63,532 nt of DNA from positions 1 to 63,532 of the forward strand of contig JAITLL010000063.1 of assembly GCA_031277915.1 (NCBI GenBank), in the 5' to 3' direction. Every line of letters begins with the position of its first letter. The stretch's first letter is position 1. The stretch comes from Acinetobacter sp. (GTDB lineage: Bacteria; Pseudomonadota; Gammaproteobacteria; Pseudomonadales; Moraxellaceae). Shown here piece after piece: positions 8,665 through 27,450 of the stretch. Made by a program: the position numbers and the translations under genes. The notes under the pieces were generated by a model. That model had not been told where the DNA came from. It worked only from the letters and a program-made list of their open reading frames with translations, and ran no database searches.

Positions 8665-8798
8665 AATTTTCCCCCGTAATAGTTTAGGTATAGCTATGTT
8701 TATGAAAGTGTTCATTACCTATCTAACTGTATTGATCATTTGGAAAAACTAGTAGATAGCCTAAGAAGTAAACATAAAGGATAGTATTTTAATATACT

Positions 8799-8844
8799 TG
8801 TACCTATTTTGGGTAAATTTAATTTGTACCATAAAAAGGTACAA
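8799..8844 (+). promoter_or_regulatory. paired operators, one covering the start codon of the XRE repressor gene
   Basis: TTGTACC-7 bp-GGTACAA (8824-8844) is a perfect 7-bp inverted repeat, and its last base is the A of the ATG at 8844. A second half-conserved copy begins with TTGTACC at 8799, followed by GGGTAAA. A -10-like TATACT lies at its left edge. The layout suggests autoregulation by the XRE protein and a very short or leaderless transcript. Confidence 0.6.
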
Positions 8845-9092
8845 TGACAAATAGTATCCATACCAATGAGATGAGTGCTTTGTGTGATTGGCTTAAAGAG
8901 CAACGTATTACACAAAAATTAACTATGCGGGAATTATCAGAACGCCTAGGTAAGCCTCATTCATATGTACAAAAAGTTGAGCAAGGCGAACGGCGTTTAG
9001 ATGTCGTAGAATATATTTGGTACTGTACAGCTCTAAAGATTGATCCTCATGCTGGTGTGCAACTTGTCTTGGCAATAGTAAAAGATCAATAA
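8844..9092 (+). CDS. small XRE-family transcriptional regulator
   Basis: An 82-residue single-domain helix-turn-helix protein (LKEQRITQKLTMRELSERLG, PHSYVQKVEQGERRL). Its length is typical of small repressors of mobile elements. There is no ribosome site at normal distance because the perfect palindrome TTGTACC/GGTACAA occupies the space up to the ATG. It is the last gene before the right attachment site and points towards it. Confidence 0.85.
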   Translation: MTNSIHTNEMSALCDWLKEQRITQKLTMRELSERLGKPHSYVQKVEQGERRLDVVEYIWYCTALKIDPHAGVQLVLAIVKDQ

Positions 9093-9316
9093 ATTTATCC
9101 TTTTAAGAGATTTTGTCTTGTATCGCATGGTATATCATTAGTTTTATATTTAATTTATTCTAAAAATTAATGGTTTAAATTTTATTTCGTCAGTGGGTTG
9201 ATGGAATTGAACAGGACTTTAATAAGAATATTTATGTATAGTCTGGTGTATAGTTGTTAAATTATAACTAATTATAATTGTTTTAAATCAATTGTTTATA
9301 TATGTTGGTAAGTAGA

Positions 9317-9331
9317 CGCCATCCCACCAAA
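9317..9331 (+). repeat. attR-like site closing the ssrA element
   Basis: CGCCATCCCACCAAA matches the ssrA end at 257-272 except for one deleted T. It lies 11 bp before a terminator that looks like the original ssrA terminator. The segment 9093-9316 between the XRE gene and this site is AT-rich and holds no gene that I can see. Confidence 0.55.
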
Positions 9332-9341
9332 ATTCGTGAAA

Positions 9342-9371
9342 AACCCTGAAACGAAAGTTTCGGGGTTTTTT
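9342..9371 (+). terminator. displaced native ssrA terminator
   Basis: An 11-bp stem AACCCTGAAAC / GTTTCGGGGTT closed by a GAAA tetraloop and followed by a T tract. No plus-strand gene ends here. Its position right after the attR-like site suggests it ended ssrA transcripts before the element inserted. Confidence 0.65.
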
Positions 9372-9387
9372 CTTTTTAAGATTCAAA

Positions 9388-12300
9388 TTATTAAATCATC
9401 TATGCGATGAGCAACAGCGTGGATCGGCTCAATTGATCTAGCTTTCTTTTCTAAATCATCTATGCGATGACGAACAAGACATCAATTTTCTTAAGGCCTG
9501 TAATTTTTTTCTAAATCATCTATGCGATGACGAACGAATTTTTTAGGGCTTCCAAACGGTCATTGTATTTCTAAATCATCTATGCGATGACGAACGTGGG
9601 TCCTTTGGATCAGTCGGCGGATTTGTTTTTCTAAATCATCTATGCGATGACGAACAAGTGTAAATAACAGATTTGCTGGCTTTTGGGTTTCTAAATCATC
9701 TATGCGATGACGAACTGGGTAGCAGCTTAGGTTCGAATAGAAACTCTTTTCTAAATCATCTATGCGATGACGAACTTGGGCGTAGAAACGGCGTTAAAAC
9801 ATTTAATTTTCTAAATCATCTATGCGATGACGAACGACCTTTACCGTCTGTAATTTTTGTGCCTGCTTTTCTAAATCATCTATGCGATGACGAACGAGCC
9901 AAGCAACTGAGCGGCTTGCATTTGGGTTTTCTAAATCATCTATGCGATGACGAACTTTTAGCTTATGCTGGCGCTTAAACCAAAGTTTTTCTAAATCATC
10001 TATGCGATGACGAACAATCAGCATCAAATTGCTGAGGATTTTGTATATTTCTAAATCATCTATGCGATGACGAACAACAAGAGTTGCAGTAAATGTCGTA
10101 TAAGATGTTTCTAAATCATCTATGCGATGACGAACATGAGGAACTTGATTTCGGTAATCAGAAAGCATTTCTAAATCATCTATGCGATGACGAACGTTCC
10201 AGTACTCCCGCAGCACTATGTTGCATGTTTCTAAATCATCTATGCGATGACGAACTTCCAAAAGAAAGCTTGGTTGCAAACCTAGATTTTCTAAATCATC
10301 TATGCGATGACGAACGTCTGGCTCATGACTGAAATCTACCTTCACACTTTCTAAATCATCTATGCGATGACGAACCAAATTACTTCTCTTTGTCACTGGT
10401 GCACTATTTTCTAAATCATCTATGCGATGACGAACGTCTAGCCTTATCAGCTAAAGTCATATTTGAATTTCTAAATCATCTATGCGATGACGAACCCGTT
10501 GATGGTATTTATGGTTCAGCTACGTTATTTCTAAATCATCTATGCGATGACGAACTTGATCTTTACAAGCTCAAAGCGGTCAATATATTTCTAAATCATC
10601 TATGCGATGACGAACGTAAAGATGCATATAAAGCTGCGCTGCCAACATTTCTAAATCATCTATGCGATGACGAACGGTTTAGATCTTCTAATTCACGACA
10701 ATCATTATTTCTAAATCATCTATGCGATGACGAACGGATCGGTTTCACCTTCCCAAGAGAAACCTGCATTTCTAAATCATCTATGCGATGACGAACCTTT
10801 TTGTTTAATTAAAACCGTGACCCGACACTTTCTAAATCATCTATGCGATGACGAACTCAACAAGGCCATGATGCGTTGTCTGGTTAAATTTCTAAATCAT
10901 CTATGCGATGACGAACTGTGATCCATTCGATATTCCTGATCATTGGATTTTCTAAATCATCTATGCGATGACGAACGTTACCGCCCACCTGTTTTAAAAA
11001 CCGAAAGTTTTCTAAATCATCTATGCGATGACGAACATAACCCCACTCCACCATCGTCATTTCAATATTTTCTAAATCATCTATGCGATGACGAACTTGG
11101 GTGTTTGGGTTTAGATATCTCGCTACTTTTTCTAAATCATCTATGCGATGACGAACGTCTTGACGTTTTGACAAACGTTGACCTGTTCTTTCTAAATCAT
11201 CTATGCGATGACGAACATTATGGGAAAGTCTCTCCACATTTCTGGACTTTTCTAAATCATCTATGCGATGACGAACTCGTTACCCGCATTATTACCCGTT
11301 TTTTTCGATTTCTAAATCATCTATGCGATGACGAACCGCAGCAGCTTTACCGAGAACTATATGAATTATTTCTAAATCATCTATGCGATGACGAACGGAT
11401 GTGTTTAAGCGCCAAGATGTTCAAGATCTTTCTAAATCATCTATGCGATGACGAACTTGGGAATGTTGCGAAATGAGCGCCCTTGTAATTTCTAAATCAT
11501 CTATGCGATGACGAACTGAAAATCAGGGAAAATATGACTCAGCTAAAATTTCTAAATCATCTATGCGATGACGAACGATGTGATTGTTAAATCTTTGCTT
11601 AAAGCTGGTTTCTAAATCATCTATGCGATGACGAACCTGTGACTTTGACTATCAAGCCCAATGGTCGTTTTCTAAATCATCTATGCGATGACGAACCATT
11701 AAGCCATGAGGATACTGGCATTATTACTTTTCTAAATCATCTATGCGATGACGAACTACCTGTGTTGCTAGAGGAACTATGTGCTCAATTTCTAAATCAT
11801 CTATGCGATGACGAACAATTTTATTTCTCTGTTGCTAATTCAATGGCTTTTCTAAATCATCTATGCGATGACGAACGTATGTCTCAAAGAAAAACTTCAC
11901 TGGATTATTTTCTAAATCATCTATGCGATGACGAACCCGAAGTTTAAAAACCGTGGTGATGTAATTAGTTTCTAAATCATCTATGCGATGACGAACTGAT
12001 TGATATTTTGTACCATTTGCTTGAGGTTTTTCTAAATCATCTATGCGATGACGAACGTCTTTCTTAAATAATCGCACAACACCTTGAGTTTCTAAATCAT
12101 CTATGCGATGACGAACTTTGAAGCCTTCAATGATGCTTATAACGCAATTTTCTAAATCATCTATGCGATGACGAACGTTCCCGTTTAAGCTGAGCCATTA
12201 ATTCTTGATTTCTAAATCATCTATGCGATGACGAACATCTGCTGTGTACCAACTGGTGGCAACTGGTCTTTCTAAATCATCTATGCGATGACGAACATGA

Positions 12301-15300: not shown

Positions 15301-16194
15301 TTATGCATTAATGTAATTTTGTTTTAAAAGAAAAATGTCGTCTTGCGGCCAGTGGTAGGTCCACAATAATTTTTGCAAGTTATGCCAAGTGTCATCCTCA
15401 GCCTCAGTATTTCTCCTTAGAATCTCACCTAAAGAAAAATACTGAACAATGCCGGTAAGCGGTTCTGCATAGGCATGTGCTGTCGTTTCCTGATTTTGTG
15501 CTTGGCGAATACCAGCTCGTTGGTCTGTGGGTGGCTCAAGTAGGGCATAACCCAAATTAGTTGCCGATATCCAACTTAAATTTTGGTCATTAAAGAACGT
15601 TCTAAGCGCATCTGCTTTTAATGCCAATAGTTGGGTAAATGCTTGAACACGATTAATTTGTTTACGTTGCTGATATTCAATAAGCAAATCTTGTCGATCT
15701 AAAATGGCAAATCCAGTTTTGATTTTCTTTAAGGCAGTTTCTAATTCATTTTCAGCATGTGTCGTAATTTCTAAAAACTCGATAATTTGTCCGCCAGCAA
15801 AACGGCTACGTTTCAGTATATTTGTTAGTTTTTCTGGACTAATGCGAGAGCTAGAAAATTTGATAACAAGGCTAAACTCTAAATGACAAGATGCGGTTGG
15901 TTGTAAAGACAATATTGGACGTTTGGCTGATTTTTTACCAATATAATCTTGCATATTTATATATGTTGCAGCTCTGCGTTGAGCAGGTGTAAAGCGCCCA
16001 TAGGCTTGCCCACCTAAACGTTGTTGGTCATGATGAATATAAATAATGCCTTCTTCTTTAGTACCTAATTGTCTTGCCAAATGATGTGCAAACATATTGG
16101 CTGCAAACAAAGGTACTCCACCTAATAAAACGCCATTGGTTTGCATATTTGCATTTTGTACTCGCATACGAGGAATAACGACATAACGACTCAT
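15301..16194 (-). CDS. csy2: type I-F Cascade subunit Csy2 (Cas5f)
   Basis: A 297-residue Csy2, which with Csy1 holds the 5' handle of the crRNA and takes part in PAM recognition. The start YVVIPRMRVQNANMQTNGVLL and the segment RFAGGQIIEF fit the family. Its ATG overlaps the end of csy1 by 4 bp. No frameshift or truncation is seen. Confidence 0.93.
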   Translation of the reverse strand: MSRYVVIPRMRVQNANMQTNGVLLGGVPLFAANMFAHHLARQLGTKEEGIIYIHHDQQRLGGQAYGRFTPAQRRAATYINMQDYIGKKSAKRPILSLQPTASCHLEFSLVIKFSSSRISPEKLTNILKRSRFAGGQIIEFLEITTHAENELETALKKIKTGFAILDRQDLLIEYQQRKQINRVQAFTQLLALKADALRTFFNDQNLSWISATNLGYALLEPPTDQRAGIRQAQNQETTAHAYAEPLTGIVQYFSLGEILRRNTEAEDDTWHNLQKLLWTYHWPQDDIFLLKQNYINA

Positions 16195-17354
16195 CGAACA
16201 ATCTCCCGTAAGCGGCGGGCGATATAACCTTCTGAATTGCTATCTAGGCTAATCGTTACAGTTTCATTATTTATTTCTATATCAAAAGTTTCATTGGTGA
16301 TTTTTCTAGCAAGATAATCAGAGAACTTTATTCTCCAGTTATCATCTCTTAGTTCTGGATCAATCAAACCTTGTAAAACAAACGAAAGGCTCGGATGAAC
16401 CCAGAATGAAGGGCGTTCAATTTCTTCCATACTTGGTAGAATTGATTCAGCCTCTTCTAAAATATTTTTTTGGAAAGTCGCTTGTCTTAATACATCTTTA
16501 GCAAGGATATTCAGGAAAATAATTTCCTGATCTCGTACATCCCGATTAGTAGAAGGAGCGAAAATCTCGAGGTCATGCCAATTTTGAATAGTATTCGTTG
16601 CAGTAATAACAAGTTGGCGATTTAAAATTTCTGACCACTCTTTAATTGCTTCTTTTGCCCGTTTAGTTCCATTAAGCAGTTTTATTTTGCGGGATAGACG
16701 TATCGTAAATCCGTTATAGAAAATCGCTAATGCTTGGCGTACTTTTTCACTTGCTTGAGGAGCATCAACTGTAATAGGGCGTTGCATTGAACGAACGAGG
16801 CTTCCCACATTTTGTGGATTGGCTCCGCCTATGCCAAAAACAGCAGTTTGAATGCGGTTAAACTCACTGTCTTTTTCTTTGCGTAATTCATTTACAGCAT
16901 CAACTTCTTGGTTCACCAGATAATTTACACCAGCAGCAGTAAGTGGACTTACTGAAACGTATTTACCATTTTTTGGAATTAAAAGCTGGCGCATACGTAT
17001 ATCAATGTTTTCTGTACCTGCTTGATACGGCTCATTAAAAATAGATGAAATGGATGGCTTGAGCTGTTCCACTTGTTGTTGAAACTCAGCATCTTCTAAA
17101 TTGATCTCATTATCAATCATGGCAGCTTTTACGACTTTAAAAGTACTCGCATTTTTTGCATCGCCTTGATAATCAGTAGGAATAAGGAAGTCTTCATTTA
17201 ATAAAGTTCGAGCACTAAGATAGGGTAAATCAAGTGCTTGTTGCTTACTTAAACGAATTCCACCTTTTTCAATATTGGAATTAATCGTCTTTAAACTAAA
17301 GTGTACCGATTCTTCTAAAGCGTTTATAAAAATATCAGTTTGTGGTTCAGGCAT
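16191..17354 (-). CDS. csy1: type I-F Cascade large subunit Csy1 (Cas8f)
   Basis: A 387-residue Csy1, the subunit that recognises the protospacer-adjacent motif in target DNA. Segments GGANPQNVGSLV and PSFWVHPSLSF are typical of Cas8f. It is slightly shorter than the Pseudomonas protein. It is the first gene of the csy1-csy2-csy3-cas6f-cas1 unit, transcribed away from the second array. In the common I-F layout cas3 lies directly upstream on the same strand; here an array and a strand switch separate them. Confidence 0.92.
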   Translation of the reverse strand: MPEPQTDIFINALEESVHFSLKTINSNIEKGGIRLSKQQALDLPYLSARTLLNEDFLIPTDYQGDAKNASTFKVVKAAMIDNEINLEDAEFQQQVEQLKPSISSIFNEPYQAGTENIDIRMRQLLIPKNGKYVSVSPLTAAGVNYLVNQEVDAVNELRKEKDSEFNRIQTAVFGIGGANPQNVGSLVRSMQRPITVDAPQASEKVRQALAIFYNGFTIRLSRKIKLLNGTKRAKEAIKEWSEILNRQLVITATNTIQNWHDLEIFAPSTNRDVRDQEIIFLNILAKDVLRQATFQKNILEEAESILPSMEEIERPSFWVHPSLSFVLQGLIDPELRDDNWRIKFSDYLARKITNETFDIEINNETVTISLDSNSEGYIARRLREIVR

Positions 17355-18327: not shown

Positions 18328-21300
18328 ATGCATGTCATTCTTATCTCTGCTTGTGAAAAAAGAGCTTTAAAGAAAACTCGAGCGATCTTGGATAGCTATG
18401 CTATTCGTACAGGACATTCATCTTGGCAAGCACCAATGACAATGGAAGGTTTAAAAGAAATTCGTAGCGCATTAAAAAAAGTAGCCACCCGACAAAGTGC
18501 TGTAGCCGCTTACATTAATTTTGGTGTGCGAAGAATGAAGCTTGCATGGGTTGTGGGAGCAAAACATAAATTTGCACACGATGGTGCATACCCAGTGGCT
18601 TCAACTAAAAAACAGCAAAAGTTATTGATGCTAGATGAATGGGGCAAAGTAAGTAGCTTGTTGGCAGGTGCAGCAGGAGACATGCATGATATTGGTAAAG
18701 CTTCACAACATTTTCAGAACAAATTAAGTCCAGAAATGGCGGGACAAAAAATTAAAGATGACATTCGACATGAATGGCTGTCTTTAAAACTATTACAACA
18801 ACTCAGAAAAAATGGATGGGACTGGCAGCTTGCTTGGAAGAATTTAGAAAAAGGTTTAGATAAATTTACTTTAGGTGATCGGCAAGAAATAGAACAGGGA
18901 ATCCAAAATGAATTAGAAGCAGTCGATTATTTGGTTGTTACGCATCATGGATTATTAGGGGTGGAAGAAGCTTTAAAAAATGATCCACTCGCATTACCTC
19001 ACTATGAAAATCATGTTCGTACATTGGTTCCAAGTCATGAGCAACTTACCTGTGCAGGTGAGTTACCAGACTCTATTTTTAAAAGTCATCAAAAACGTAT
19101 GCAGCGTTTAACTGCATTAATACTAAAGCAAAAAACAGATCAGCTTTTGTATTGGAAAGCTTTAGCTCTGCATTCACGAGCAGCGCTCATTCATGCCGAT
19201 CATATTGTCTCGGCACAACAATATTCTTTGCAAAAACCTGAAAATGTATCGTTATTTGCAAATACCAAGCTTAAAACTATAGACCAAGACAAGAAAGCCA
19301 AATTACAAGATCAACCACTAGAATGGCATTTACACCAAGTCGGAGATCGGGCTTCACGCATTGCAGTTCAAATGATGACTGATTTGAGTTTATCTGGTCT
19401 ATCTGAGCAAACAGTTGAATATATTTGCCAGCCAACAACTCACCCACGTTTCCAATGGCAAAATATCGCAGCAAATTCATTGCAAAAAAATATACAGAAG
19501 CACCCTGAAACGCCGGCACTGGTATTTAATATTGCAGGGACAGGAAGTGGTAAAACCCGCATGAATTTGCGCGCTGCGTGTACTTTACGACCAGATGACC
19601 CAAGAATAGCGATTGCACTTAATTTGCGTTCTTTAACTTTACAGACTGGGCATGCACTTAAAACGTCGATGAATCTATCGGAAGATGAAATTGCAGTGAT
19701 TATTGGGGATACTGTTACTCAGACTTTATTCGATCAAAGTAAAGAGAAAATGGAGTTTGTTGATGAAGATGAAAATCATCCAGAGCCTATTTTTGATGCT
19801 TGGGGTGAGGACTGTGATTTACCTGAATGGTTACATCCATTATTTACGGTTGAAAGAAATGGGCGCAAAGTTTTAGATCAAAAGGAAACTACAATCCTCG
19901 CTTCGCCATTATTAGTTTCAACCATTGATTATCTGATTGCAGCGGGTGAGCCTCATAGACAAGGACATCACGTTAAAGCATTACTTAGAATGATGAGTAG
20001 TGACTTGATTTTAGATGAAGTTGATGGCTATGAACCTAAAGCATTGATTGCTGTGTTGCGTTTAGTTCAGTTAGCTGCAATGTATGGTCGAAATGTTATT
20101 TGTTCGTCGGCAACCTTATCACTTACAGTTGCCAAAACAATTCATCGGGCTTTTGAGTCGGGTATACAGATGCGGGCGGCTCTCTATGGAAATGAGAAAA
20201 AATCAATCATTGCGATTATTGATAATGAGCTTAAACCGCAGGTCTGGTTAGAACGATCAAATCAAAAATCAGAATTTAATACAATCTACCAAAAGCATTT
20301 AGATAATTTACAAGTTCACTTGCTCTCTAAGCCTACTCATCGTCTGGCTCAACTGCTTTCATTACCTGAAACTACGGTTTTATCGTGGAAACAGTCAGTA
20401 CTAGAAGCAGTTAAGCAACTTCATCAAGAGCATGCATGGAATTTTAAAAAGACTGAAAAGAAAATTTCTTTGGGGCTTATACGGGTTGCTAATATTAAAC
20501 ATGCAATTCGACTTGCCCATTTTTTATCAGATCATTTACCCGAGGCAAAAGTAGCTTGTTATCATGCGAATGACTGGCTTATCTCAAGATTTTATAAAGA
20601 GCAACGTTTAGATCAGCTTTTAACACGTCATAAAGACGGTAAAAAAAGAAAAACTGGTAATGAGCAGATCGAGCAAGATGATGAAATTATTGACCTCATT
20701 CAAAAATCTAATTCTCTAAATATTCCATTTATTGTGATTGCAACACCAGTGGAAGAAGTCGGGCGAGATCATGATTTTGATTGGGCTATTATTGATGCAT
20801 CAAGTGTACAGTCAATTGTACAAACGGCTGGCCGAGTCAACCGTCATCGATTAGAAAAAGTACAGCAACCCAATATTATGATTCCACAGTGGAATTATCG
20901 TTATTGTGAACGACGTGATATTGAAAAACTTAAGCAACAAAGTAAACAGCGCAGACCTGTATTTGTATACCCTGGTTATGAAGGATATGGTTTATCTGTA
21001 ACTTCAACTTATTCATCTCAAGATTTAAAAGAGCTTTTGCCGTGGGATCATCAATCTCAATTAGTCATTAATGCTCGATTGCGTTTTGATCAAGTAAATT
21101 GTTTATTTGCAAAACATGATGATCAACAAATAGGAAATTTTTGCCAAAATTATTTTAATGATCAAGGAGAGCAGTTATTTTCTCGGTCAGATGTAGACGC
21201 AAGTATCATGACAGAGAATATTTATAATTTAACGCCTTTACGTGAACGTAACTATCAAGAAACCTATATGTTTGAGTGGGCTGAGAGCTTGATTGTGAAA

Positions 21301-21564
21301 AAGCAAGTTTATGGTTTTGATGAAAAAGCGACTAAAACTTTAAAATATCCAAAATATGGTTTGGTATGGGATCAAGTGAAGTTCGAAGAAATTCCTGCTA
21401 AACCACAAGCATGGTTAGCACTAACGCCACAACAAATGAAAGATTACTGTTATGAGTACCAAATTGCCAATGAGCAAGGCTGCCGTATATCTTTAACACG
21501 TTATAATGGAGATCAAATACCTACTTGGTCTTATGATTATGGCTTTGGGGTTATGCAAAAATGA
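18328..21564 (+). CDS. cas3: type I-F Cas2-Cas3 fusion nuclease-helicase
   Basis: A 1078-residue fusion. Residues 1-95 are the Cas2-like part (MHVILISACEKRALKKTRAILDSYAIR). The HD nuclease shows H120-D121 (AGDMHDIGKASQHF) and THHGLLG further on. The helicase has Walker A AGTGSGKT near 404, the DEVD box near 563, the SATLSL motif and the TAGRVNRHR motif VI. It degrades DNA marked by the Csy complex and joins Cas1 in spacer uptake. It is on the opposite strand from all other cas genes, behind CRISPR2, and may be served by the array transcript as well as by a promoter in the 72-bp AT-rich gap upstream. Confidence 0.95.
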   Translation: MHVILISACEKRALKKTRAILDSYAIRTGHSSWQAPMTMEGLKEIRSALKKVATRQSAVAAYINFGVRRMKLAWVVGAKHKFAHDGAYPVASTKKQQKLLMLDEWGKVSSLLAGAAGDMHDIGKASQHFQNKLSPEMAGQKIKDDIRHEWLSLKLLQQLRKNGWDWQLAWKNLEKGLDKFTLGDRQEIEQGIQNELEAVDYLVVTHHGLLGVEEALKNDPLALPHYENHVRTLVPSHEQLTCAGELPDSIFKSHQKRMQRLTALILKQKTDQLLYWKALALHSRAALIHADHIVSAQQYSLQKPENVSLFANTKLKTIDQDKKAKLQDQPLEWHLHQVGDRASRIAVQMMTDLSLSGLSEQTVEYICQPTTHPRFQWQNIAANSLQKNIQKHPETPALVFNIAGTGSGKTRMNLRAACTLRPDDPRIAIALNLRSLTLQTGHALKTSMNLSEDEIAVIIGDTVTQTLFDQSKEKMEFVDEDENHPEPIFDAWGEDCDLPEWLHPLFTVERNGRKVLDQKETTILASPLLVSTIDYLIAAGEPHRQGHHVKALLRMMSSDLILDEVDGYEPKALIAVLRLVQLAAMYGRNVICSSATLSLTVAKTIHRAFESGIQMRAALYGNEKKSIIAIIDNELKPQVWLERSNQKSEFNTIYQKHLDNLQVHLLSKPTHRLAQLLSLPETTVLSWKQSVLEAVKQLHQEHAWNFKKTEKKISLGLIRVANIKHAIRLAHFLSDHLPEAKVACYHANDWLISRFYKEQRLDQLLTRHKDGKKRKTGNEQIEQDDEIIDLIQKSNSLNIPFIVIATPVEEVGRDHDFDWAIIDASSVQSIVQTAGRVNRHRLEKVQQPNIMIPQWNYRYCERRDIEKLKQQSKQRRPVFVYPGYEGYGLSVTSTYSSQDLKELLPWDHQSQLVINARLRFDQVNCLFAKHDDQQIGNFCQNYFNDQGEQLFSRSDVDASIMTENIYNLTPLRERNYQETYMFEWAESLIVKKQVYGFDEKATKTLKYPKYGLVWDQVKFEEIPAKPQAWLALTPQQMKDYCYEYQIANEQGCRISLTRYNGDQIPTWSYDYGFGVMQK

Positions 21565-21938
21565 AAAAAATTAGTGTCGTAAATTAGACCTATACCATAA
21601 CAGACATTGATTTTAATATCTCTCTGAGATCTATTAATTCTTTATGATCTAACTGATTAAATTTATTTTAATTATTTATTTTTAATAATTCTTTTTATTT
21701 AAACTTTTTCTTAATAAATGTCTCATTAGATATGGAATATTTCATCCGTAAAGCATGGTTTTCTGACTAACTTGTTATTTATTAGATTGTTTTTAAAATT
21801 ATATAAAGTATTTATTGAATTCTATGTTGATAGTGCTGAATATTATTTTAAATTTTAATTAAACCTATTAAAACAACAGTTTATTTGAAAATAAAACATA
21901 ATAATATATATTAATAATGTAACATTATATTTTTTCTC

Positions 21939-21967
21939 TTGAAAGTATAAAATTTAAACGATATAAA
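21939..21967 (+). promoter_or_regulatory. strong sigma70-type promoter of the mini-peptide cluster
   Basis: TTGAAA (21939-21944), 17-bp spacer, TATAAA (21962-21967), about 58 bp before the first mini-gene. The remaining part of the 460-bp gap behind cas3 (21565-21938) is very AT-rich and shows no gene or clear structure. Confidence 0.65.
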
Positions 21968-22024
21968 AGCTATGCAGATATATTTATATGTGTGCATATA
22001 TTAATTTATAAAGGAAGTATCATC

Positions 22025-22075
22025 ATGAAAAATCGTAAAAAAAATGCTGAATACCTAGGTACTTTACTAGGTTAA
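22025..22075 (+). CDS. mini-peptide copy 1, candidate precursor
   Basis: Encodes MKNRKKNAEYLGTLLG (16 residues) and TAA. It has an AAAGGAAG ribosome site 9 bp before the ATG and is the first of four copies behind the promoter at 21939. The peptide has a basic N-terminal half and a leucine/glycine-rich C-terminal half, like a short leader plus core. It is not recognised as any described precursor. Position before a peptidase-like gene and an amino-acid exporter suggests a processed, exported product. Confidence 0.75.
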   Translation: MKNRKKNAEYLGTLLG

Positions 22076-22122
22076 TTTAGTAACCGAAGCAAAAATATCA
22101 ATTTTATAAAGGAAGTATCATC

Positions 22123-22173
22123 ATGAAAAATCGCAAGAAAAATGCTGAATACCTAGGCACTTTACTAGGTTAA
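22123..22173 (+). CDS. mini-peptide copy 2, candidate precursor
   Basis: Encodes exactly the same 16 residues as copy 1. Three codons differ and all are synonymous: Arg CGT to CGC, Lys AAA to AAG, Gly GGT to GGC. The ribosome site is unchanged. Confidence 0.75.
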   Translation: MKNRKKNAEYLGTLLG

Positions 22174-22219
22174 TTTAGTAACCGAAGCAAAATATCAATT
22201 TTATAAAGGAAGTATCATC

Positions 22220-22270
22220 ATGAAAAATCGTAAGAAAAATGCTGAATACCTAGGTACTTTACTAGGTTAA
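22220..22270 (+). CDS. mini-peptide copy 3, candidate precursor
   Basis: Same peptide as copies 1 and 2. It differs from copy 1 only in one Lys codon (AAG) and from copy 2 in the Arg and Gly codons, all synonymous. The trailer reads TTTAGTAACTGAAGC, one base different from copies 1 and 2. Confidence 0.75.
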   Translation: MKNRKKNAEYLGTLLG

Positions 22271-22316
22271 TTTAGTAACTGAAGCAAAATATCACTTTTA
22301 TAAAGGAAGCACGATC

Positions 22317-22367
22317 ATGAAAAATCGCAAAAAAAATGCTGAATACCTAGGTACATTATTAGGTTAA
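22317..22367 (+). CDS. mini-peptide copy 4, candidate precursor
   Basis: Same peptide again. It differs from copy 1 by synonymous changes at Arg (CGC), Thr (ACA) and Leu (TTA), although its non-coding flanks have diverged most. That contrast points to selection on the peptide itself. It is the last copy before the hairpin at 22383. Confidence 0.75.
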   Translation: MKNRKKNAEYLGTLLG

Positions 22368-22382
22368 TTGAGTATCCTCGAC

Positions 22383-22420
22383 AAAAATAGTATGTCTATA
22401 TTAATAGACATACTATTTTT
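22383..22420 (+). terminator. terminator-like hairpin between mini-genes and enzyme genes
   Basis: A long perfect inverted repeat, AAAAATAGTATGTCTA and its complement TAGACATACTATTTTT, around a short AT loop, ending in a T tract. It would end most transcripts after the four mini-genes and let a minority read into the enzyme and exporter genes, a common arrangement in ribosomal-peptide clusters. The stem is AT-rich, so its strength is uncertain. Confidence 0.6.
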
Positions 22421-22460
22421 AAAAAATTAATAAAGAATAATAATTTAAAGGAATATAGCT

Positions 22461-23543
22461 ATGGAAGTTATTAGCATTCGTCCAAATCTTATTAAAACTT
22501 TTAATAACCCAAATAATGATTATTTTTGTATAGTAACGAATGAGTCTTTGGAAGATAAAATTAAAATTACTGATGATTCTAACTATATTGAAAGTAAGAT
22601 TATTTTATATAAACCTAATGATAAGTTTGAAAACTTACTGGAAAGTGTAATACCTGAAAATTCTCATGTATTAGTTATTTCTCCTGATGTTTTTTTTCAA
22701 TCACCCGATCAGAAACATATTGGAAGCAAAAGAAAATTGATTGCTATGGCATGCAATTCAACTCCAACGGATATAAATGCCATAAAGCATTTTATGGAAA
22801 TAATTGAAAATACTGATCCAGATAGCCAACAGGAATTTGCTGATAGATTCTTTAATATTGGTGAAGATTCAGATTTTTTAAGCTTTGTAGACCCAGTGAA
22901 TAATACATTAGCAACATTTAATCATTTAGATGAAAGTTATCTATGGAGTGAGCAGGCTGGTCATTTAGGATATGGAGAGCAACAATTAGCTCCAGCAGGG
23001 GAAATTAGTGTTTTACCTTTGAGAATTCAAGAGTTTGATGAAACTTTACGTTTAGATTTTAACGGCACAATCGCATTACATGGAGTTCCGATTTTACATA
23101 ATGGAACTGTAAGCTTCTTGCGAGAAGATCAAAAAAGAATATTTGATCAACTGATAGAGATTAAACATAACCCTATTATTGCCACTGTTGAAAATGGCGT
23201 TATCACTGCTCTTAGTGATCCAACGGGTAAATGTCCAAATGCTCTAAATATGTTAAATAGTATGTTTACTGTAGATTCCAGATATAGAATTCTTTGGGAA
23301 ATTGGGTTTGGTGTAAATACACACAATAAAATACTCGATGGAAACCAAGCTATGAATGAAACCTTTGGTAATACTGATGGTGCTATACATTTTGGTTTGG
23401 GTTTAACGCCATACACACAATATCATTTAGATATAATTTGCCCAAATACCGTGGTTAAAAACAATAAGAATGAATATTTGATTGGAAAAGAAGGGAAAAA
23501 GATATTACGAAATAAATCAATTGGATGCCCTTGTATAGAATGA
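22461..23543 (+). CDS. M29-aminopeptidase-like enzyme of the mini-peptide cluster
   Basis: A 360-residue protein. The C-terminal half resembles the metal site of M29 (aminopeptidase T/AmpS) enzymes: APAGE (E181), WEIGFGVN (E280), DGAIHFGLG (H310) and YHLDI (H322, D324), in the order of the family's five ligands. The N-terminal 150 residues look like the family's variable alpha/beta part. The protein is about 50 residues shorter than typical M29 enzymes and ends with an unusual CPC motif (356-358). There is a ribosome site AAAGGAATA before the ATG. It is coupled to azlC by an ATGA overlap, so it probably cleaves or modifies the mini-peptides or a product from them. The family call is from motif recall. 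Confidence 0.6.
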   Translation: MEVISIRPNLIKTFNNPNNDYFCIVTNESLEDKIKITDDSNYIESKIILYKPNDKFENLLESVIPENSHVLVISPDVFFQSPDQKHIGSKRKLIAMACNSTPTDINAIKHFMEIIENTDPDSQQEFADRFFNIGEDSDFLSFVDPVNNTLATFNHLDESYLWSEQAGHLGYGEQQLAPAGEISVLPLRIQEFDETLRLDFNGTIALHGVPILHNGTVSFLREDQKRIFDQLIEIKHNPIIATVENGVITALSDPTGKCPNALNMLNSMFTVDSRYRILWEIGFGVNTHNKILDGNQAMNETFGNTDGAIHFGLGLTPYTQYHLDIICPNTVVKNNKNEYLIGKEGKKILRNKSIGCPCIE

Positions 23544-24205
23544 TAACTAATACATCATTGCTAAGCAGAAGTATACCTGTTTGCTTAGCATTAACACCTA
23601 TCGGTTTATTATTTGGTATTCTCGCTGGTCAACAGAATCTTCATCATTATGAGGTTCTATTATTAAGTATTCTCGGATTTTCAGGTAGTGGGCAGTTTGC
23701 ACTCTTAAGTTTTTATCAGAATAACTTTATAGATATTGGATATTTAACAGCATTTTTACTTATATTAAGTATGAATGTTAGATATATTCCAATGACATTA
23801 ATAAGTACTCCAAAAGATATTAAACTAAGTTCAAAAATTTTTTATTGCCATATACTTTCTGATGAATCTTTTGCTACTGAGAGATACACAGATACATATC
23901 ATGATCATCTCAAAATCCGATTATATATTTTCTTTACATGGGTGATATCTACTTTAGCTGGTCAGATATTATCGTCATATATACCTGATTATATATTAAG
24001 TTATTTAAATGTATCATTTCCTATTTCTGCAATTTTGTTTACTTTAAGTTTTATTAATATAAAAATTAAAACTACGAAAAATAATATTAAGGTCATATTT
24101 GTTCTATTTTTAGTGACTGTTTTATCCTTCTTTATTTTTGGAGAAAGATTTTTTTGGATACCAGCAATTCTAACTAATTATATTATTTTTAGGAAATTTA
24201 AATGA
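23540..24205 (+). CDS. azlC: AzlC-family branched-chain amino-acid exporter, large subunit
   Basis: A 221-residue inner-membrane protein with several hydrophobic segments and the AzlC signature (PIGLLFGILAGQQNLHHYEVLLLSI, then FSGSGQFALLSFY). AzlC-AzlD pairs export branched-chain amino acids or analogues. I chose the ATG at 23540 because it overlaps the stop of the preceding gene as ATGA; an upstream ATG at 23525 is in frame. It overlaps azlD by 4 bp. Location behind a peptide array and a peptidase-like gene is unusual for this family. Confidence 0.85.
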   Translation: MITNTSLLSRSIPVCLALTPIGLLFGILAGQQNLHHYEVLLLSILGFSGSGQFALLSFYQNNFIDIGYLTAFLLILSMNVRYIPMTLISTPKDIKLSSKIFYCHILSDESFATERYTDTYHDHLKIRLYIFFTWVISTLAGQILSSYIPDYILSYLNVSFPISAILFTLSFINIKIKTTKNNIKVIFVLFLVTVLSFFIFGERFFWIPAILTNYIIFRKFK

Positions 24206-24516
24206 ATACAAAACTATTAATTGGTGTTGTAATATTATTTTCTATAAGTGTTATTGTCAGAATAGCACCTGCATTTGTAAAAAATAGACTGAATAGTGAA
24301 ACATTAGACAATATTGAGCAAGTTTTACCAATATGTGTTTTTATACCTATGTCTGTCTATTTTTTTATAACTGAAATACAGAAAAACTTTTTACCAGCTA
24401 TTCTTTCATTCATATTTATATTTATCTTGTTGCAGATTAAAAGTAATAATCTTGTGACAATTGTTGGTTCGATACTGTTATTTATTTTTATTAAGAATTT
24501 TACAAACTTGAATTAA
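24202..24516 (+). CDS. azlD: AzlD-family small subunit of the exporter
   Basis: A 104-residue protein with about four membrane segments. It matches the small AzlD partner in size, position and character (PAFVKNRLNSETLDNIEQVLPICVFIPMSVYFF). Its ATG overlaps the azlC stop (ATGA). Its stop codon directly abuts the stop of the convergent VOC gene with no base between. Confidence 0.8.
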   Translation: MNTKLLIGVVILFSISVIVRIAPAFVKNRLNSETLDNIEQVLPICVFIPMSVYFFITEIQKNFLPAILSFIFIFILLQIKSNNLVTIVGSILLFIFIKNFTNLN

Positions 24517-24900
24517 TCATTCTCTTAAAACTGCTTCAATATTGTTACCATCCATATCAATGAGAAAAGAGGCATAATAATTACTACTATAGTTCAAGCG
24601 ATAGCCTGGTTTTCCATTATCTTTGGCTCCAATTTCTAAACCTATTTTATGAAAAGCAATGACCTCATCTTTTGATTTAGCTGAAAAAGCAAGATGTACT
24701 TTACTATGGATACTGTCTTCTGAACTACTCGCTATCCAGAAATAAACTCTATTATTCATTCCAAAGCCATACGCAATTATATTTTCATTATCATCTTTTC
24801 TTTTTTTTAAACATTTGTATCCTATACTCTCTAAGAGATAAGTATAAAAATTATAAGCTAAATCTAAATTAGTTACTTTTAATTCAATGTGATCTATCAT
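24517..24900 (-). CDS. VOC (glyoxalase/bleomycin-resistance) family protein
   Basis: A 127-residue protein with the glyoxalase fold pattern: MIDHIELKVTNLDLAYNFYTYLLESIGY at the start, VHLAFSAKSKDEV in the middle and FLIDMDGNNIEAVL at the end, giving H4, H69 and E124 as possible metal ligands. VOC proteins isomerise, cleave or bind small molecules. It is convergent with azlD and may or may not belong to the peptide cluster. No specific substrate can be named. Confidence 0.85.
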   Translation of the reverse strand: MIDHIELKVTNLDLAYNFYTYLLESIGYKCLKKRKDDNENIIAYGFGMNNRVYFWIASSSEDSIHSKVHLAFSAKSKDEVIAFHKIGLEIGAKDNGKPGYRLNYSSNYYASFLIDMDGNNIEAVLRE

Positions 24901-25125
24901 AATTATATCTATTAATTATTAAATAATATTTAATCTAACATGAAATTCATACAATATGAATATATTACTGTAGAACGGACTCAGAAGGTCGATAAATAAG
25001 TCTACATCTTAGTCATGATCAGTTAGCTTTGCCTAAGGTCTCCTTGCTTTAGGAAAAATTAATTTTTCATATACTTAGAATGCAATGCCATTACAACTTC
25101 TCTTACTTTATCTTTGAGTGGATTA

Positions 25126-26910: not shown

Positions 26911-27450
26911 TTAATTCCACTCAGCCATAGGCTTAGATAAATCAAAAGTTGTTAAATCGATTTCTTTGGCTTCTGTACCTGTTTTAATTAACTTGGTATA
27001 ACCGCTTTTATCTGTAAACCCTTCGATTTCAGTGCCGTCAGGACCTTTTAATTTAAAATATTGTTGTGCAAGTGGTTTACTAGTCTCTTGATCTTTAAGC
27101 TGAAACTTAAGCCCATGTTCATCAGTTTGAGGTACAAAACTATCTTGAGCTTTACTCGCTGGTGAACTTTGTGCAGAACCGCCACCATTATCTTGAACTA
27201 CTAAGTTTTGTTGAGGTAGTAATTTACATCCACAAGAAAGCGAATCGTTAACACGGGCAGCAGCTTTACCAAAGATTTGCATATACGGGTCGCCAGAAAC
27301 AATCGTTGCGACAATTTTATGGGTGGGGCAAGTAGCTTTGTCACCGACACAGGCAACGGGAATACCGTCAACTAGGAACATGCTGTTCCCTGAAATTACT
27401 TGACCACCGCCAGTAGTGGGGCAGCCTATTGTTATATATGGTGTTGCCAA
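26911..27450 (-). CDS. PAAR-domain type VI secretion spike protein with C-terminal extension
   Basis: A 179-residue protein. Residues 1-95 are a PAAR domain (TIGCPTTGGGQVISGNSMFLVDG, CVGDKATCPTH, MQIFGKAAARVNDSLSCGC), which caps the VgrG spike. After a Ser/Gln-rich linker the C-terminal 65 residues (LKFQLKDQETSKPLAQQYFKLKGPDGTEIEGFTDKSGYTKLI) look like a small beta domain used to dock cargo. No VgrG gene is present in this window. It leads the operon PAAR - candidate effector - two lipoproteins. Confidence 0.9.
   Translation of the reverse strand: MATPYITIGCPTTGGGQVISGNSMFLVDGIPVACVGDKATCPTHKIVATIVSGDPYMQIFGKAAARVNDSLSCGCKLLPQQNLVVQDNGGGSAQSSPASKAQDSFVPQTDEHGLKFQLKDQETSKPLAQQYFKLKGPDGTEIEGFTDKSGYTKLIKTGTEAKEIDLTTFDLSKPMAEWN

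Follow-up and report, generated by a model that had tools for sequence, protein, structure and literature searches.

A conserved 16-residue peptide encoded beside a CgnB-like enzyme and an AzlCD exporter in Acinetobacter points to a minimal crocagin-type pathway

Four short tandem genes occupy positions 22025-22367 of the window, the 63,532-nt stretch of Acinetobacter sp. DNA analysed here, and each encodes the same 16-residue peptide, MKNRKKNAEYLGTLLG. All lie on the forward strand and run from ATG to TAA (copy 1, 22025..22075; copy 2, 22123..22173; copy 3, 22220..22270; copy 4, 22317..22367), one in each of four head-to-tail units of 97-98 nt, and AAAGGAAG stands 5' of every copy (4/4). This array agrees with the initial annotation, as does the synonymous character of its coding differences: five coding sites vary among the copies and 5/5 are synonymous, a class that makes up 32/144 (22%) of the possible single substitutions in copy 1. 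Compared with the reference unit, the 97-nt unit of copy 4 shows 86% identity and that of copy 1 shows 88%, the latter because the upstream flank of copy 1 is non-repeat. The peptide is short and cationic, with a basic N-terminal half, a single Tyr, and a [K/R]xxxY motif followed by LGTLLG. The strong promoter proposed 5' of the array finds no support, as sigma-70-like matches show no excess over shuffled sequence (26 vs 23.8 +/- 4.5).

A perfect 17-bp hairpin (22383..22420, forward strand; arms 22383-22399 and 22404-22420) separates the array from the enzyme gene, again as first described. The whole array-enzyme spacer has a folding z of -6.0 against 100 mononucleotide shuffles. Nearly the same hairpin is present in loci L007 and L008, and one of different sequence lies at the same place in L009, L047, L003, and L010. 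The structure is unclear in L011 and L012, and the whole-spacer z of L014 is weak (-1.64); all z values refer to mononucleotide shuffles, and L006, L054, and L055 were folded without shuffles. Identity as a terminator was rejected, since a consensus scan found 0; that scan accepts only stems that contain at least three G-C pairs and are followed by a run of T, and the structure is therefore named only a hairpin.

Beyond the hairpin, the forward strand carries the gene for a CgnB-like enzyme of 360 residues (22461..23543), so named from its predicted fold and conserved ligands, followed by azlC (23540..24205; Pfam AzlC, 2.1e-22) and azlD (24202..24516; Pfam AzlD, 1.3e-06), which encode the large and small subunits of a branched-chain amino-acid exporter. 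The annotated coupling of these genes is confirmed by ATGA overlaps at 23540-23543 (enzyme/azlC) and 24202-24205 (azlC/azlD); the azlC start is set at the overlap, and its frame is also open from an ATG at 23525. In 7/7 proteobacterial loci, azlC and azlD lie 3' of the enzyme gene. A convergent gene on the reverse strand (24517..24900) encodes a glyoxalase/VOC-superfamily protein whose match falls just under the Pfam cut-off. A VOC-like ORF also adjoins azlD in L007, L008, and L009, is absent from that position in L047, and is not recognised there in L003 or L010. Because of its absence in L047, this gene is rejected as a core part of the cluster, and it may be an accessory or self-protection gene.

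The enzyme was initially called M29-like. Its predicted fold is indeed M29-related, but it matches 0 Pfam families at E <= 1, Peptidase_M29 included, and the predicted fold is closest to CgnB/CgnE and NicX, ahead of the M29 aminopeptidases (AmpS, AmpT, PepS), which have the same general fold but score lower in the structural comparison and lack the dedicated peptide gene found here. A related described system thus exists in CgnB/CgnE, the peptide-binding proteins of the known RiPP crocagin. NicX, a 2,5-dihydroxypyridine 5,6-dioxygenase that acts on small molecules through a mononuclear Fe site, fits the predicted fold as well as CgnB/CgnE do, but the window enzyme differs in keeping the six-ligand set of CgnB. 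In the structural model, residues E181, E280, E300, H310, H322, and D324 would form a dinuclear metal site equivalent to Glu161, Glu252, Glu274, His280, His291, and Asp293 of CgnB. The six ligands are invariant in 18/18 aligned type A/B1/C enzymes, an alignment of single-copy (types A and C) and first-paralogue (B1) proteins. Sequence similarity to CgnB stays below significance. In the PDB, profile A4 has no match at E <= 10, CgnB included. For the L012 enzyme alone, CgnB is the top PDB match, but a weak one (E 0.44), in which 5/6 ligands pair with CgnB residues and Glu161 falls outside the alignment. The enzyme ends in a Cys-Pro-Cys tail that is modelled with low confidence and is probably flexible.

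Three other Acinetobacter lineages, with 2-4 copies, and Paraburkholderia, with one copy, likewise encode these 16 residues 5' of an enzyme-azlC-azlD operon of the same kind, and peptide identity thereby spans two proteobacterial classes. The marine gammaproteobacterium IMCC1989 carries one copy of a two-residue variant (AE -> DA). Four copies are therefore no general rule, given the single copy in Paraburkholderia and IMCC1989. Recurrence of the peptide in the equivalent position in other genera indicates that the array is more than chance. Every nucleotide difference among 17 identical-peptide copies is synonymous; the search pattern demands an identical peptide, and the absence of variant copies in those arrays rests on small-ORF lists. 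A search for non-synonymous drift in related strains yielded only AE -> DA in IMCC1989, the sole peptide change within type A. The Acinetobacter genomes with the enzyme (5/176, one match per genome) are exactly those with the peptide (5/176), and a reversed control pattern gives 7 matches in the same 176 genomes. Enzyme loci devoid of mini-genes were also sought, and none was found, the peptide gene adjoining the enzyme gene in 24/24 loci examined across types A, B, and C. These data support a real peptide that belongs with the enzyme and is under strong purifying selection, as the initial annotation had proposed.

The enzyme is present in 2/96 relatives, in 1/398 Pseudomonadota with a single-sequence query and 3/398 with a profile query (two of the three weak), in 9/297 Streptomycetaceae (one weak), and in 2/396 Actinomycetota, both at loci already in the set. 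A scan of genome contigs gave 10 loci, and 9 of 72,556 plasmid records carry the enzyme; of these plasmid matches, H1, H2, H3, and H7 were examined, H4, H5, H6, and H8 were left out, and H9 is probably locus L054. The counts leave out the weak or partial matches G693 (E 7.8e-6), G101 (3.4e-7), and G289 (4.7e-4). No clear family member was found in the G693 and G289 regions; G101 has a 326-aa ORF next to apparent ligase and aminotransferase genes. Carriage as phage cargo was rejected: at a cut-off of E <= 0.01, a set of 50,697 phage records gave no match, and 0 of 6 pattern matches in viral contigs were confirmed.

Actinomycete relatives fall into two types. Type B comprises Streptomyces clusters with two enzyme paralogues, the peptide MKKIKVQKNRNYLGTLLG, whose gene lies between the two enzyme genes, and a mangotoxin-type oxidase. 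The second paralogue is metal-dead in 6/6 of these clusters; that of L053 retains the residue matching H310, and so has lost three ligands, not four. The catalytic subunit has no Cys tail, which is instead found on the metal-dead partner. MboA-like oxidase homologues occur in 6/6 type B clusters (E 3.7e-20 for the L048 copy), together with ATP-grasp ligases. Type C comprises actinomycete clusters, mostly with NRPS genes, whose peptide contains …SKYGKYDRLEG. NRPS homologues lie beside 9/11 type C loci; none was matched in the sequence covered beside L011 and L012, the latter a short stretch, and the peptides of these two loci are acidic overall (net -7). A TauD-type gene adjoins most type C loci. 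The residue after the peptide Tyr is Leu in types A and B and Asp or Gly in type C. In the tree of enzyme types, the joins of C and B2 carry a long-branch warning.

The crocagin cluster of Chondromyces crocatus likewise encodes a basic precursor of only 21 aa, CgnA, together with an enzyme of the same predicted fold, and in both systems duplicated clusters pair one metal-binding with one metal-dead copy. The two precursors share [K/R]xxxY around the modified, or here putatively modified, Tyr; passages of PMC10070186 place this motif at Lys16 and Tyr20 of CgnA and describe CgnB/CgnE as binding a precursor that is then converted. The portions of the crocagin literature covered report no product for single-copy members of the CgnB kind. 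Differences are also evident. Crocagin-like precursors conserve Trp after the Tyr, whereas the window peptide has Leu, and the crocagin pathway needs a CgnC-type Fe/2-oxoglutarate dioxygenase, for which Pfam searches of the operon genes, the VOC gene, and a further nine ORFs nearby found no candidate. No carbamoyltransferase, methyltransferase, CgnD protease, or other leader protease is recognised in the window operon, and no CgnE-like metal-dead paralogue was matched in the five Acinetobacter genomes with the enzyme. Tandem precursor copies, the AzlCD exporter, and the C-terminal CxC tail set the window cluster further apart. Since no crocagin-type dioxygenase was found in its operon, the cluster is best read as a variant of the crocagin kind.

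Pearlin and 3-thiaglutamate pathways use a ribosomal scaffold peptide to build a small amino-acid-like product. The role proposed for the present peptide shares that idea. Pfam searches of the operon and of nine neighbouring ORFs found no peptide aminoacyl-tRNA ligase. Mangotoxin clusters resemble type B in their MboA-like oxidase and ATP-grasp ligases, but their ligases assemble mangotoxin from free Leu, Ala, and Arg, and the portions of PMC13185094 covered mention no YLGTLLG-type peptide or CgnB-like protein. A literature search, whose scope did not extend to the PMC10070186 supplement with putative precursors, found no occurrence of AEYLGTLLG, YLGTLLG, or KYGKYDRLEG. Among the matches listed for scaffold peptides and RiPPs, AzlC is not mentioned.

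Several other roles for the peptide can be weighed against that of a precursor. It could activate or inhibit the enzyme or belong to it as a small, stable subunit, an improbable though not negligible alternative: extreme full-length conservation would suit a binding interface no less than a substrate, and the peptide gene accompanies every enzyme locus examined, but the tandem copies, as many as four, and the hairpin better suit a consumed substrate made in excess, and the fold relatives CgnB/CgnE, in the passages of PMC10070186 noted above, bind a precursor that gets converted. It is unlikely that the mini-genes specify a secreted signal or small bacteriocin trimmed by the enzyme, with AzlCD unrelated or carrying other cargo. 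The short, cationic peptide and the M29-related fold would fit such a role; against it, the 16 residues contain no signal-like hydrophobic stretch, the operon has no recognisable peptide exporter, all seven proteobacterial loci have azlC and azlD 3' of the enzyme gene, and the divergence typical of signal or immunity systems is not seen.

An ordinary aminopeptidase operon with amino-acid efflux, in which the peptide is incidental, is very unlikely. An M29-related protein and AzlCD could together clear peptides and amino acids, but peptide identity across two classes and peptide-enzyme co-occurrence argue otherwise, and the literal form of this reading is rejected on the missing Pfam match and the closer fold elsewhere. 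Least probable of all is a set of attenuator leader peptides regulating enzyme and exporter. Short ORFs and a hairpin 5' of a structural gene recall such a leader, yet all four copies are complete and have ribosome sites of their own, the peptide has no codon run, the gene for the same YLGTLLG peptide sits between two enzyme genes in Streptomyces, and synonymous codons vary where attenuators depend on particular codons; this reading was rejected on these grounds.

Taken together, the findings point to an undescribed pathway from a ribosome-made peptide to a small exported compound. A minimal crocagin-type cluster is considered probable: the peptide would serve as precursor, to be bound and modified by the CgnB-like enzyme, and AzlCD would export the product. 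Counting against it are the lack of significant sequence similarity to CgnB, the equally good fit of NicX to the fold, the absence of a recognised dioxygenase or leader protease from the operon, Leu in place of Trp after the Tyr, and the acidic peptides and unclear hairpins of L011 and L012. The basic N-terminal half of the peptide would be gripped by the acidic enzyme, leaving the region around the only Tyr as the core, and the two-metal site would act on the bound peptide, probably near this Tyr. The multiple mini-genes, together with the hairpin that precedes the enzyme gene, may keep the precursor in excess over the enzyme. Cellular peptidases would then free a small product, which AzlC/AzlD would pump out of the cell; AzlCD usually moves amino acids, so the modified peptide itself may be too large. 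In actinomycetes, the same peptide-enzyme pair may be wired into other pathways: in type B, a catalytic enzyme and its metal-dead partner would work alongside a mangotoxin-type oxidase, and in NRPS clusters the product would serve as a building block.

A bolder and rather doubtful proposal is that the peptide is feedstock for one non-protein amino acid or very small Tyr/Leu-derived unit, made without a partner oxidase, exported by AzlCD in proteobacteria and used by NRPS or amino-acid ligases in actinomycetes. The CgnB-like enzyme might then be a diiron oxygenase receiving electrons through its mobile C-terminal Cys-x-Cys tail, which in type B stands on the metal-dead partner as if working in trans. 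If true, this would give NRPS building blocks a ribosomal origin.

Three genes and a peptide form a very small setting for a CgnB-like protein on its own, so that what such a lone protein can do is open to direct test. Three kinds of cluster, NRPS ones included, are linked by the peptide motif that they share, and should the product prove to be a building block, ribosomal and non-ribosomal biosynthesis would be joined.

The cluster begins with four mini-genes (22025-22075, 22123-22173, 22220-22270 and 22317-22367) that form a tandem array with a repeat period of 97-98 nt. Each is preceded by the ribosome-binding site AAAGGAAG and each encodes MKNRKKNAEYLGTLLG; the four copies of one shared peptide that were proposed in the initial annotation are real. 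The hairpin predicted between the array and the enzyme gene was confirmed as perfect over 17 bp, and it is followed by the gene of the CgnB-like enzyme (22461-23543), whose proposed coupling to azlC and azlD is borne out by ATGA overlaps in the sequence. The strong promoter also claimed upstream of the mini-genes gave a signal no better than chance. GC content across positions 21500-25000 is 24-31%, against mostly 33-40% on either side, and this AT-richness relative to the flanks suggests that the cluster is an acquired island.

The order peptide-enzyme-azlC-azlD is kept in all seven proteobacterial loci, with AzlC and AzlD identified by Pfam in six of them (the Paraburkholderia AzlD scoring 0.1 bit below the curated cut-off) and in L008 by near-identity to L007. 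The number of peptide copies ranges from four in each of two Acinetobacter calcoaceticus strains (L007, L008), through two in A. rudis (L009) and in a further Acinetobacter locus (L047), to one in Paraburkholderia largidicola (L003) and one, encoding the variant MKNRKKNDAYLGTLLG, in gammaproteobacterium IMCC1989 (L010). Among the 17 copies encoding the identical peptide, 17 nucleotide sites vary and every change is synonymous; the enzymes of Paraburkholderia and the window share only 60% identity, with an identical peptide. Across 176 Acinetobacter genomes, a YLGTLLG-stop pattern gave 16 matches, spread over five genomes and each a short distance upstream of the enzyme gene; the reversed control pattern gave seven scattered matches. 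The enzyme-bearing genomes were exactly the same five, and no enzyme without mini-genes was found among the 176. A peptide-enzyme hairpin occurs in 7/7 proteobacterial loci, in at least five different sequences, which fits a precursor produced in excess over the enzyme.

Several neighbouring genes were also recorded. A VOC/glyoxalase-like gene (24517-24900, minus strand), convergent with azlD and similarly placed in L007, L008 and L009 (four of the seven proteobacterial loci), might serve self-protection or tailoring. The A. rudis cluster adjoins a gene for a PhzC-PhzF family protein (L009, 4571-5386, minus strand; Pfam 2.5e-43). Just upstream of the window cluster lies a type I-F Cas3 with Cas2-Cas3 fusion domains by Pfam (18328-21564); a weak Csy1-like protein is encoded at 16191-17354 (E 5.7e-4, below the cut-off), and a PAAR-motif protein, a type known from the tips of type VI secretion systems, at 26911-27450 on the minus strand (Pfam 1.1e-21).

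Profile searches revealed two further settings. In six Streptomycetaceae genomes (type B, L048-L053), two adjacent enzyme paralogues, one catalytic (B1) and one metal-dead (B2), flank the peptide MKKIKVQKNRNYLGTLLG in 6/6 cases, which in L053 reads …KKNGKYLGTLLG; in L049 the pair with its peptide spans 8797-11148, the peptide lying at 9933-9989. All six loci carry a haem-oxygenase-like oxidase (83-100% identity to the L048 copy); in the PDB, that L048 copy finds its best match in the mangotoxin acetylenase MboA (E 3.7e-20). ATP-grasp L-amino-acid ligase, DUF2817, M20, MFS and dehydrogenase genes are present in the type B loci tested (L049, L051, L053), and these clusters appear to encode a so far uncharacterised pathway of peptide or amino-acid type. 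In the actinomycete single-enzyme loci (type C), a peptide of 40-50 aa whose C terminus is …SKYGKYDRLEG or a variant of it precedes the enzyme in all 11 loci read, separated from it by a hairpin in nine. An NRPS homologue follows the enzyme in 9/11 (L004-L006, L013-L016, L054, L055), and the same nine have a GntD-like (TauD) dioxygenase gene nearby, making a ribosomal-NRPS hybrid possible; neither gene was found in L011 and L012. L004 additionally carries a radical SAM gene, together with an extra gene for adenylation.

The motif [K/R]xxxY is common to all nine peptide forms compared. In the enzyme tree, types A (the proteobacterial loci), B1, B2 and C each form one group and B1 is closest to A (95/91), with a long-branch warning attached to C and B2. 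A 326-aa protein in genome G101 (L078, 7128-8108, minus strand) is a possible distant relative, with ligase-like and aminotransferase-like neighbours by eye.

In crocagin biosynthesis, the basic 21-residue CgnA is bound by CgnB and CgnE, its Tyr and Trp are hydroxylated at Cbeta by CgnC, and CgnB has been proposed to catalyse elimination at Tyr via its metals, as described in PMC10070186. Like CgnA, the window peptide has a basic front, a single Tyr four residues past a Lys and a short tail, and the enzyme is acidic (net charge -19). From this CgnA-like build, the acidic enzyme and the hairpin, the peptide is taken as the probable substrate of the CgnB-like enzyme, which by analogy would act in the Tyr region, and AzlCD as the putative exporter of a small product. 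The window genome holds four AzlC matches besides that of the cluster, which scores lowest against the Pfam model; this fits a specialised cargo, short of showing it. Neither the operon genes nor nine neighbouring ORFs of the window yielded a 2-oxoglutarate dioxygenase, and in the proteobacterial loci the part of CgnC might be played by the two-metal enzyme itself, by a chromosomal oxidase, or there may be no oxidation whatever.

The CgnB-type family has been known since 2023 from PMC10070186, where single-copy homologues were also mined; its main text names neither AzlC, Acinetobacter nor Paraburkholderia. Every duplicated case reported there had a CgnC homologue, unlike type B, which has the MboA-like oxidase and in which the genes scanned, covering part of each cluster, included neither TauD nor any other 2-oxoglutarate dioxygenase. 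The window cluster looks like a crocagin-type precursor-enzyme pair. Unlike crocagin clusters, it has no CgnC among the genes scanned, no CgnE and no Tyr-Trp, and for want of these three cluster-level features it is not called a crocagin cluster; we file it as a variant of the crocagin kind.
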